From Dehalococcoidia bacterium (GTDB lineage Bacteria; Chloroflexota; Dehalococcoidia; Bin125), in assembly GCA_022826965.1 (NCBI GenBank), contig JAJDTU010000005.1, positions 124,001 through 188,000 on the forward strand: DNA of 64,000 bases. Reading direction: 5' to 3'. Of the stretch, positions 14,534-18,035 are shown piece after piece. The notes under the pieces are model-generated. The model made no database searches, was not told the origin of the DNA, and was given only the letters and a program-made list of their open reading frames with translations. The stretch's first letter is position 1, and the number at the start of each line of letters is the position of its first letter. A program made the translations under genes and the position numbers.

Positions 14534-14884
14534 ATGCCACGAGTCAAGGGCGGCCCGCGAGAACGTCGGCGACACAAGAAGGTTCTGAAGCAGACCAAGG
14601 GGCATCATGGCGTGCGCCATCGCCTGTATCGGCGAGCCTCTGAGTCCCGACTCCACGCGCTCTCGTATGCCTACGCACACCGTCGCGAGCGCAAGGGCGA
14701 CATGCGCCGGATCTGGATTCAGCGGATCAATGCCGCCGCGCGGCTGAACGGCACGACGTACAGCCGTCTGATCCACTCGCTGAAGCAGGCGGGTATCGAG
14801 ATCGACCGCAAGGTCCTGGCCGAGATGGCGCTGCATGACCCGGACGGGTTCAGCGCCGTGGTCAAGCAGGCCAACGCCGGCTGA
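14534..14884 (+). CDS. rplT: 50S ribosomal protein L20
   Basis: L20 binds 23S rRNA early in large-subunit assembly and in several bacteria represses its own operon by binding the mRNA leader. The 116-residue sequence matches the family from end to end: MPRVKGG, the basic N-terminal extension with RRRHKKVLKQTKG, then YAHRRERKGDMRRIWIQRINAAAR, and LAEMALHDPDGF at the C-terminus. AGGA lies 9 bases before the ATG. A bidirectional terminator follows 25 bases after the stop, marking the end of this translation-gene block. Confidence 0.98.
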   Translation: MPRVKGGPRERRRHKKVLKQTKGHHGVRHRLYRRASESRLHALSYAYAHRRERKGDMRRIWIQRINAAARLNGTTYSRLIHSLKQAGIEIDRKVLAEMALHDPDGFSAVVKQANAG

Positions 14885-14909: not shown

Positions 14910-14943
14910 AAAGCCCGGCGCCCGCGACGGGCTGCCGGGCTTT
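14910..14943. terminator. Bidirectional rho-independent terminator
   Basis: AAAGCCCGGC (14910-14919) and GCCGGGCTTT (14934-14943) form a 10-base stem around a 14-base GC-rich loop. T-rich ends are present in both directions (TTTCGT on plus, TTTGTT on minus). It separates the convergent rplT (plus) and the CIRCE-linked gene (minus). Confidence 0.85.
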
Positions 14944-14967: not shown

Positions 14968-15483
14968 TCAGGAGCCTGTTGACAACGCTGGAGTCTCGCT
15001 GGCGTCGAACGCGAGATCGGCTGCGTCCGCCTCGGGCAGATGGTCTGCGAGCCACGCGCCGGTGTCCTGATCCTTGAGCCACGGCAGGATGTGCGTCAGG
15101 GCGATGAACTCGCGCATGTGCAGCGCATTCTTGATCACGTCGAACTCGATCTCGCGGTTGCGCTCGCGCCACTCATCGGGCAAATCGATGTGGGCGTCGG
15201 CAAAGGCGCGGGCTGCGACGCGAGCGTCTTCCATGTTGAGCTGCAGGAACGCGCGCAGTCGCCGGACAACGAGCTCGTGCGCCGCTTCCCACGACGCGGC
15301 GCCCTCGCGTCGGGCCATGGCCCGCATGACCCGCCGCAGCTCGATGGGCGGCAGGGCGGTGGCGTCGTAGAGGGTTGCGGCGAGCTGCAAGTGGTCAGTC
15401 GCGTCGTTCAGCCGGTGGGTCAGGTCGCCCAGCTCAAAGGCGCTGCCATAGTTCTCGGACAGGTTCGGATGCACGTACGTCAT
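14968..15483 (-). CDS. Unknown helical protein under a CIRCE element
   Basis: I do not recognise this 171-residue protein. It appears soluble and mainly alpha-helical, with charged amphipathic stretches (LRRVMRAMARREG, HELVVRRLRAFLQL, DEWRERNREIEFDVIKNAL) and an acidic C-terminus. It has no cysteines, signal peptide or membrane segment. The ATG at 15483 is preceded by AAGGAA with 7 bases spacing; the frame extends upstream but through the CIRCE operator. That operator, 39 bases before the start, implies repression by HrcA and induction by heat or misfolded protein. It could therefore be an accessory stress or chaperone-related protein, but nothing in its sequence confirms this. It follows pheT on the same strand after 140 bases. 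Confidence 0.85.
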   Translation of the reverse strand: MTYVHPNLSENYGSAFELGDLTHRLNDATDHLQLAATLYDATALPPIELRRVMRAMARREGAASWEAAHELVVRRLRAFLQLNMEDARVAARAFADAHIDLPDEWRERNREIEFDVIKNALHMREFIALTHILPWLKDQDTGAWLADHLPEADAADLAFDASETPALSTGS

Positions 15484-15522
15484 GAGCGGTTCCTTCCACG
15501 TCGTTCGTCTTCGACTCCAATT

Positions 15523-15549
15523 CTGGCACTCTGTGGCAGAGAGTGCCAA
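15523..15549 (-). promoter_or_regulatory. CIRCE operator (HrcA binding site)
   Basis: The minus strand reads TTGGCACTC, 9 bases, GAGTGCCAG. The CIRCE consensus is TTAGCACTC-N9-GAGTGCTAA, so 15 of 18 arm bases match and the spacer is exactly 9. The arms are perfect complements over 8 bases. The element lies 39 bases upstream of the start at 15483, the usual place in a 5' leader. CIRCE normally controls groESL, dnaKJ or hrcA itself, none of which is here. Confidence 0.85.
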
Positions 15550-15623: not shown

Positions 15624-18035
15624 CTATGAGTCTCGCAGCGTCGCCTTGAACTGCGACTCCAGGCGTCGCACGATTCCCCGACGCGCCTTCTCAACATCGC
15701 GGTCGGTCAGCGTCCGATCGGGCGACCGGTAGTACACGCGGAAGGCCAACGACTTCTTCCCGGCCGGGATCTGATCACCCTCGTAGATGTCGAACAGATC
15801 GATGGCTTCGACCAGCCCATTGCCCCCGATTGCGGCGGCGAGCTCGCCAGCGGCGGCGTCGCGATCCACGATCAAGGCCAGATCCTCGACGGCCGCGGGA
15901 TAGATCGATGGCGAAGGCACCGTCTCCGATTCGCGGAGCACCGGCGCGAGTGCCGCAACCGACAGCTCCAGCGCGAAGACATCGCCTTCGATCCCGAACT
16001 GACCAGCGAGGCTCGGCATCAGCTTGCCCAGGACTCCGACCGGTTTGCCGCGCGCTGTGATTTGAGCCGACTCTCCGCCGACCAGCGCCGCGTCATCAGC
16101 GCCGCCCTGCAGGCCGAGTTCAACATCGAGGCCGGCCGCGAGCTGCTCGAGCACGCCCTTGGCGTCGTAGAAGTCGAGCGGTCTGGCGGCCTCGCCGTGT
16201 ACGGAAGCGGGCGCCTCGCCACCGACCAGCGCCAGCACCACCCGCTCTTCGATCGGTTGTCGACCGGGTCGCGCCTTGAAGGTCTTGCCGACCTCGTAGA
16301 TGCCGAGCCCGCCACGAGCCTCTCGTTGATTGGACGCGAAGGTCTCGAGTCCGCGCGGGCGCAGGCTGGTGCGCAGGCGGTCTTGCGCCGCGTTCATGGG
16401 GTTCTGCAGCCTGACCGAGGACGTTTCCGAGGTCGCTTCGGAGGCGGTCAGGGACAACTCAGACTCCTGAACCGTCACGTAGGTGATGATCTCGCGCAAG
16501 CCAAGGCCCGTCAGGACGTCGCGGATGCGCTCGCCCAGATCTCGCTCCCGATCGATGTCAGGATCCGGGACCGCGCCGGGCAGCGGTTCCGAGGGCAGAT
16601 TGTCGTATCCGAGGACGCGGCCGACCTCTTCGACGACGTCGTCCGGGACAGCGATATCCGAACGCCAGGGCGGGCAGCTGACGGCGAACCGATCGGGCGG
16701 CAGCCAGCGATTCGAGATGCCCAGAGCGGAAAGGATGCCGCGCACCTCTTCGACGCTCGGCTGAACGGAGAGGATCTGGCTAATCCGCCGCTGCGGGACG
16801 ACGACCTGCGGCGTGTGCGCTTTGCCCGGGTAGGTATCGACGATTCCGGCGAATGCTTTACCCCCGGCGGTTTCGACGATCAACGCGGCCGCCCGACGGG
16901 CCGCGAGTTCGGCGAGTTCAGGGTTGAGCGACTTCTCGAACCTGCGGCTTGCCTCGGTACCGCCCTCGGTATGCCGTGCGCGGCTGCGACGAATCGAAGA
17001 TTCCTGGAAGTTCGCCGTCTCCAGCAGGACGGTGGTGGTCGAATCCGAGATTTCCGAGTCCGCGCCGCCCATTATGCCGGCGAGCGCCACGGCTCGATCG
17101 GCGTCGGCGATGACGAGATCGTCCGTCTCCAGTTTCAACTCCGAACCGTCGAGCAGTTCGATCCGTTCGGCCGGTCGGGCGCGGCGCACGACGATCCGCC
17201 CTTCGTGAAGGATCTCATAGTCGAATGCGTGCAGGGGCTGTCCCCACTCCAACATGACGTAGTTGGTGACATCGACGATGTTGTTAATCGGCCGCATTCC
17301 CGCGGACGACAGCGCGTCCTGCATCCACTCGGGCGACGGTCCGACAGTCACGCCGTCAATCAGGATCGCCGTGTACCGAGGGCAGCCTTCGGCGTCCTCG
17401 ATCTCGACGCTCGTACGTTCGCGGGCGGAGACCGTTGATTCCGGGTACGTAGCGGACGGCTCACGGACAGCGCTGCGTGTCAGCGCGGCTACTTCACGCG
17501 CAAGGCCGAGGATGGAGAAGTGGTCCGGTCGATTCGGCGTCGGCTTGATATCGAGCACGACATCGCCGAGTACATCCGCGAGCGGCGTGCCCAACGCAGC
17601 ATCGGTGTCGAGCACGAGGATGCCCTCGTGCTCGTCCGAGAGGCCGAGCTCTCGTTCCGAGCAGACCATTCCGAGCGAGGTGATGCCGCGAATCTTGCCC
17701 TTGCGGAGTCGGCGCGGCTCGCGCGTGCTGGGATCAATCAAGTGCGCGCCGACCTGTGCGAAGGCGATCGTCTGGCCCTGAGCCAGGTTCGGGGCCCCGC
17801 AGACCACTTGCAGCGGCTCGTCTGCGCCGAAGTCGACAGTGGCCAGGTGCAATCGGTCGGCGTTGGGATGCTGGTCGACTGCGGCGACTCGTCCGACGAC
17901 GACCTGTTCCCACTCGCCGCCGCTGCGTTTGATCGCCTCGACCTCGGCGCCGGCCATGCTGAGACGGTGCGCCAGTTCCTCGACCGACATGTCCCAGTCG
18001 ACGTACTGCGCCAACCACTTGAGCGGAACGTCCAT
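15624..18035 (-). CDS. pheT: Phenylalanyl-tRNA synthetase beta subunit
   Basis: This is the large subunit of the alpha2-beta2 enzyme that charges tRNA-Phe; it carries the editing and tRNA-binding domains. The 803-residue length is normal. It starts MDVPLKWLAQYVD and has the EMAP-like tRNA-binding domain near 40-150 (CGAPNLAQGQTIAFAQVGA). Next come the B3/B4 editing region, the B5 domain and a synthetase-like fold with YEVGKTFKARPG. The ferredoxin-like anticodon-binding domain closes the protein (FDIYEGDQIPAGKKSLAFRVYYR, then LTDRDVEKARRGIV). The start overlaps the pheS stop by one base (TGATG), so the subunits are coupled. The downstream gene has its own CIRCE-controlled leader. Confidence 0.98.
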   Translation of the reverse strand: MDVPLKWLAQYVDWDMSVEELAHRLSMAGAEVEAIKRSGGEWEQVVVGRVAAVDQHPNADRLHLATVDFGADEPLQVVCGAPNLAQGQTIAFAQVGAHLIDPSTREPRRLRKGKIRGITSLGMVCSERELGLSDEHEGILVLDTDAALGTPLADVLGDVVLDIKPTPNRPDHFSILGLAREVAALTRSAVREPSATYPESTVSARERTSVEIEDAEGCPRYTAILIDGVTVGPSPEWMQDALSSAGMRPINNIVDVTNYVMLEWGQPLHAFDYEILHEGRIVVRRARPAERIELLDGSELKLETDDLVIADADRAVALAGIMGGADSEISDSTTTVLLETANFQESSIRRSRARHTEGGTEASRRFEKSLNPELAELAARRAAALIVETAGGKAFAGIVDTYPGKAHTPQVVVPQRRISQILSVQPSVEEVRGILSALGISNRWLPPDRFAVSCPPWRSDIAVPDDVVEEVGRVLGYDNLPSEPLPGAVPDPDIDRERDLGERIRDVLTGLGLREIITYVTVQESELSLTASEATSETSSVRLQNPMNAAQDRLRTSLRPRGLETFASNQREARGGLGIYEVGKTFKARPGRQPIEERVVLALVGGEAPASVHGEAARPLDFYDAKGVLEQLAAGLDVELGLQGGADDAALVGGESAQITARGKPVGVLGKLMPSLAGQFGIEGDVFALELSVAALAPVLRESETVPSPSIYPAAVEDLALIVDRDAAAGELAAAIGGNGLVEAIDLFDIYEGDQIPAGKKSLAFRVYYRSPDRTLTDRDVEKARRGIVRRLESQFKATLRDS

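Follow-up and report, generated by a model that had tools for sequence, protein, structure and literature searches.

The window, a stretch of 64,000 nucleotides from a Dehalococcoidia bacterium, contains an inverted repeat that resembles the CIRCE operator, and the gene behind this repeat (here called X) encodes a protein of 171 residues. HrcA and CIRCE form a textbook system, and the HrcA regulon is usually very small, consisting of the groESL and dnaK operons. Does gene X belong to this regulon, and if it does, what might its protein do? The features of the locus are:

14534..14884, plus strand: rplT, convergent neighbour downstream of X (synteny)
14910..14943, bidirectional: terminator hairpin, AAAGCCCGGC...GCCGGGCTTT, common to X and rplT
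14968..15483, minus strand: gene X, encoding a 171-residue protein of an unnamed family, predicted to be all-helical (open reading frame; structure model)
15491..15497, minus strand: likely Shine-Dalgarno sequence GGAAGGA (from the sequence; GGAA..GGA is largely conserved in the alignment of orthologues)
15520..15525, minus strand: -10-like hexamer CAGAAT, which shares bases with the end of the right CIRCE arm; 18-bp spacer (promoter scan)
15523..15549, minus strand: CIRCE operator, reading TTGGCACTC-TCTGCCACA-GAGTGCCAG towards gene X and kept in all orthologues
15544..15549, minus strand: -35-like hexamer TTGGCA, from the left CIRCE arm (0 expected in shuffles)
15624..18035, minus strand: pheT, upstream neighbour of X on the same strand (synteny)

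The operator and its counterparts in the genome

On the plus strand, positions 15523-15549 read CTGGCACTC-TGTGGCAGA-GAGTGCCAA. Compared with the CIRCE consensus (TTAGCACTC-N9-GAGTGCTAA), 15 of 18 positions agree and 3 are mismatched. The arms (TGGCACTC and GAGTGCCA) are perfect over 8 bp, the spacer is 9 bases long, and 39 bases separate the element from the ATG of gene X (15483, minus strand). An earlier note on this DNA had reported a CIRCE element with these properties at this position, and we confirm each of them. There is no second match of this quality in the window, and 100 shuffles gave a mean of 0.02 matches. The same operator variant, CTGGCACTC-N9-GAGTGCCAA, is the form found before groESL of Desulfovibrio vulgaris (PMC545781).

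The earlier note proposed looking in the genome for hrcA and for other CIRCE sites, and both are there. The source genome encodes HrcA (PF01628, E = 6.6e-35), which also matches the equivalog model TIGR00331 (247.8 bits; the cut-off is 197.2). In the 3.0 Mb genome, just 4 places have the exact core GCACTC-N9-GAGTGC; about 0.35 would be expected genome-wide from base composition, and a control pattern, read backwards, has 1 match. One of the 4 lies before X, and the other three are found in front of hrcA-grpE-dnaK, in front of groES-groEL, and in front of a second groEL (groEL2). The operator of X is the least consensus-like of the four, with 3 mismatches as compared to 0-2. When up to 3 mismatches are allowed, a single further site appears (C7:85732). 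It is asymmetric, and we regard it as a chance match, without evident meaning, because the control pattern also yields one.

The second groEL (L018 3440-5545, in C2 of the source genome) has no groES but does have its own CIRCE. It adjoins a gene for a 99-residue S24/S26 peptidase-like protein, and several further genomes in the class also have the two side by side.

Across 12 genomes, all of the symmetric CIRCE cores lie before the three canonical operons or before X. Each of these genomes has CIRCE at all three canonical operons, and those with X have it there too. In three genomes from genera g2 and g4 in which we found no X (G128, G232, and G241), there are exactly three CIRCE cores, and they are the canonical ones. 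(This census leaves out a small number of asymmetric matches to the pattern, in G215 and G209, which are not CIRCE-like.)

Conservation before gene X

We found twelve orthologues of X (71-96% identity), by protein sequence alone, in metagenome assemblies of Chloroflexota/Dehalococcoidia. In all twelve, the repeat stands 38-40 bp before the ATG. In the alignment of 13 sequences, the left arm (TTGGCACTC) is invariant and the right arm varies at its last base only, while the 9-bp spacer varies. A profile search of the class found X in 15/15 sampled genomes of the window's genus, all with CIRCE, and the sister genus also has X with CIRCE. More distant homologues, at roughly 28-33% identity and from other families of the class, keep the operator as well (loci L038, L125, L126, L047, and L039, in which the gene is broken). 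Some of these operators are perfect, and L037 has a symmetric variant. Overall, CIRCE precedes X at 22 of 22 loci in three families of the class, counting the one with a symmetrically altered core and the one with a broken gene. (The phylum-wide profile search scored some of the candidates in each genome, and members that it missed were found later, so it gives no basis for claiming absence outside the class.) The earlier note had proposed looking for the inverted repeat in front of orthologues, and it is conserved there.

The operators before X differ in detail. They match the consensus perfectly in G209, G655, and G720, and with one mismatch in G070 and G176. Three genomes (G215, G054, and G140; loci L034, L035, and L085) have two copies of CIRCE before X. 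The tandem copies are 43 bp apart in G215 and G054; in G140, they are 82 bp apart, with a TTATCACTC or TCATCACTC arm. In G043 (L037 462-488), the operator of X is TTAGCAGTC-N9-GACTGCTAA, with both arms changed symmetrically, unlike the groEL, groES, and hrcA operators of the same genome, which are normal. In G176 (L039 1376-1650), X seems to be frameshifted or truncated, but a CIRCE with 1 mismatch and a PAC2-like sequence behind the gene remain; the break may be an assembly error.

Could the repeat be a chance palindrome, or the site of another regulator? Three of the 18 positions in the window's operator depart from the consensus, and the core at L037 is altered in both arms. But the cores in the source genome exceed the expected number and all lie before heat-shock genes or X, and the repeat is kept at every one of the 22 loci while its spacer and flanks change. 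We consider this explanation highly improbable.

In a phylogenetic tree, a branch supported at 100/99 sets all of the CIRCE-bearing X proteins apart. Outside of this branch, we found no CIRCE at any of the checked loci of related helical proteins. As CIRCE was kept before every relative found in the subfamily, X looks like a lineage-specific member of the chaperone response. The related proteins outside the branch include a sister group that is spread through the class (L128-L155). Its members are small and helical, and many of them finish with a PWWKFW-like tail, perhaps an anchor to a membrane or to another protein. Among the neighbours that we examined, no partner gene was common across the CIRCE-free relatives.

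Comparison of these sequences indicates that X is very probably under the control of HrcA. Our main reading is that X belongs to the HrcA/CIRCE (class I heat-shock) regulon and has some role in proteostasis, which we leave broad; we put the probability of this at about 85%. The earlier note had suggested X as a candidate new member of the regulon, and the presence of hrcA and the conservation of the repeat before orthologues support this.

Predicted promoter and regulation

The region has a single promoter-like site, TTGGCA-18-CAGAAT (minus strand; shuffled sequences gave 0), which coincides with the operator: the left arm is the -35 element, and the end of the right arm starts the -10 element. 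This promoter is a consensus match only. Nevertheless, the A at position 2 and the T at position 6 of the -10 element are present at 20 of 24 X operators, which corresponds to 20 of 21 intact loci. At canonical operators, they are present in just 10 of 39 cases, 8 of which are at groES. (Fisher's exact test gives 2e-7, which overstates the independence of the sites because they are related by descent.) In most canonical cases in these genomes, by contrast, CIRCE comes 2-12 bases after the -10 element of a promoter-like pair, which puts CIRCE near the start site. So X differs from most canonical targets in that its operator overlaps the predicted -35 and -10 elements.

This arrangement also bears on another way that CIRCE could work. 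A role in the mRNA leader has been proposed for some CIRCE elements that are transcribed. At X, the repeat might act mainly as a hairpin in the 5' leader that affects mRNA stability. Such a hairpin could form if the repeat is transcribed, for instance by read-through from pheST, and a consensus scan found no terminator between pheT and X. But because the predicted promoter uses the CIRCE arms themselves, the transcription start of X would lie downstream of the repeat. Furthermore, the substitutions in the arms still match other forms of CIRCE, as expected for a site that is bound by a protein. A role mainly in the leader seems very doubtful.

At its other end, X was said by the earlier note to stop at a terminator, and we agree: the bidirectional hairpin at 14910-14943 was identified from the sequence and by RNA folding, and it is absent from the listing of the consensus terminator scan.

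HrcA represses transcription via CIRCE, and its activity depends on the availability of GroE (PMC3842655). By analogy, we infer that X is repressed by HrcA and induced by heat. Under normal conditions, an HrcA dimer bound to the operator (15523-15549) would mask the -35 as well as the -10 element of X and block RNA polymerase. That is, HrcA would cover the polymerase's site directly because the promoter appears to be built from the operator. When misfolded proteins draw GroEL away, HrcA would lose its activity, and X would be switched on together with hrcA-grpE-dnaK, groESL, and groEL2.

The protein, its neighbours, and its possible role

Neither X nor its distant homologues have any hit above the cut-off in Pfam, NCBIfam, or PHROGs. 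A match of X to Ovate (E = 0.012) falls short of that family's cut-off, no known chaperone or co-chaperone family in Pfam or NCBIfam matches X, and a sequence profile search found no relative in the PDB. Using 29 diverse sequences, AlphaFold2 gave an all-helical model (mean pLDDT 81.5, pTM 0.74). The five models agree (pLDDT 78-81.5), and the core, at around residues 21-130, has a pLDDT of 90 or more. (An earlier model from 13 close orthologues was unstable, with pLDDT ranging from 36 to 75 across five models.) The earlier note had described X as a helical protein of 171 residues without a recognisable family, and these results agree with it.

Fold searches with the model lead to solenoids of helical pairs (MA3, MIF4G, CID, and VHS domains), but not above background: Foldseek gave E values of 0.25 or higher. 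The best structural alignments, among the top rows, have Z scores of 7.0-7.6 at 3.1-4.0 Å over 105-116 residues. Although these best alignments are to alpha-solenoid domains, the Z scores are within the range for unrelated helical folds, with identity of about 10%, and we do not claim membership in any of these families. We predict that X is an all-helical, solenoid-like domain.

As neither a family, a PDB relative, nor a fold was matched, our view of the role of X rests on co-regulation, the helical model, and a PAC2 neighbour in one lineage. Two ideas come from the genes nearby.

First, X lies between genes for translation. In the window's genus and genus g3, all loci whose flanking genes could be seen share the order rpmI-rplT> <X <pheT <pheS. 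The earlier note took the proximity to pheST as a hint that X might protect ribosomes or tRNA, and one could extend this to a tRNA synthetase. But X comes with an operator, a predicted promoter, and a terminator of its own. In G128, where we found no X, rplT and pheT are direct neighbours across a 26-bp gap, the empty-site counterpart of rplT-X-pheT in the window. Since the two are adjacent there, X has, as far as these sequences indicate, been inserted into or lost from the spot between rplT and pheT. Furthermore, in the stretches that we fetched from families f2 and f50, neither pheST nor rplT is beside the CIRCE-bearing homologues. Given the separate promoter and terminator predicted for X, and distant homologues without pheST beside them in those stretches, the idea of a tRNA or ribosome protector is unsupported, and we consider it very unlikely.

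Second, in family f2, a gene from the PAC2 family follows CIRCE and X on the same strand (L037 and L038; PF09754, E = 2e-45 and 6.6e-36). Similar PAC2-type genes lie behind X at L125 and L126, and a PAC2-like sequence lies behind the broken copy at L039. The source genome also has two PAC2-family genes, located elsewhere (L041, L042, and L156 comprise these two and the PF00227 match described below). These observations raise an alternative. HrcA would still act at the operator, but X, rather than being a general co-chaperone, would be induced by stress to partner or regulate a PAC2-family protein in the assembly or turnover of protein complexes. Against this, in the family of the window X is a solitary gene that ends at a terminator of its own and is unlinked to PAC2, and our genome-wide scan found no CIRCE at either PAC2 gene of the source genome. 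X itself is not a PAC2 protein. We view this alternative as rather unlikely.

The source genome also has a match to PF00227 (proteasome fold), with E = 2.5e-9. The matching piece has no NCBIfam match in the part that was tested.

Our tentative proposal is that X is a stress-induced, small alpha-solenoid protein that acts as a protein-binding adaptor or as a co-chaperone. This follows weakly from the co-regulation of X with chaperones, its helical and probably protein-binding shape, and the link to PAC2 in f2. Once induced, X would most likely take this role in protein quality control, and in one distant lineage, it may work with or alongside the adjacent PAC2-family protein. With similar caution, we suggest that X is an undescribed and lineage-specific heat-shock adaptor or co-chaperone, from a branch of a class-wide helical superfamily that was recruited once to the HrcA regulon and given a promoter made from the CIRCE arms, and that it works with GroEL/DnaK or with proteins of the PAC2 family.

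The source genome shares with the known class I heat-shock regulon (groESL and hrcA-grpE-dnaK(J)) the form of the operator, hrcA, and the operators of the canonical chaperone operons, but the gene controlled here is from a new protein family. Other additions to the HrcA regulon have been described: rpoH in Geobacter sulfurreducens (PMC545781), the phoH and wcw_1080 promoters, which are bound by HrcA of Waddlia (PMC4989314), and predicted extra targets in Lactobacillus plantarum (PMC3842655). As with X, a non-chaperone gene has joined the regulon. But those targets were reported in single species, while the link between X and CIRCE is kept at 22 loci in three families of one class. Among open papers, we found no report of HrcA/CIRCE in Dehalococcoidia. 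What is new, judging from sequence, is that the HrcA regulon has, across three families of the class, a stable member from an unnamed protein family.

The operator has been kept even as the protein diverged to roughly 28-33% identity, a sign that X genuinely belongs to the stress response, where annotation by homology has missed it. For uncultured Chloroflexota, X offers a new candidate proteostasis factor that can be tested. It is also a case in which the arms of an operator appear to double as promoter elements.
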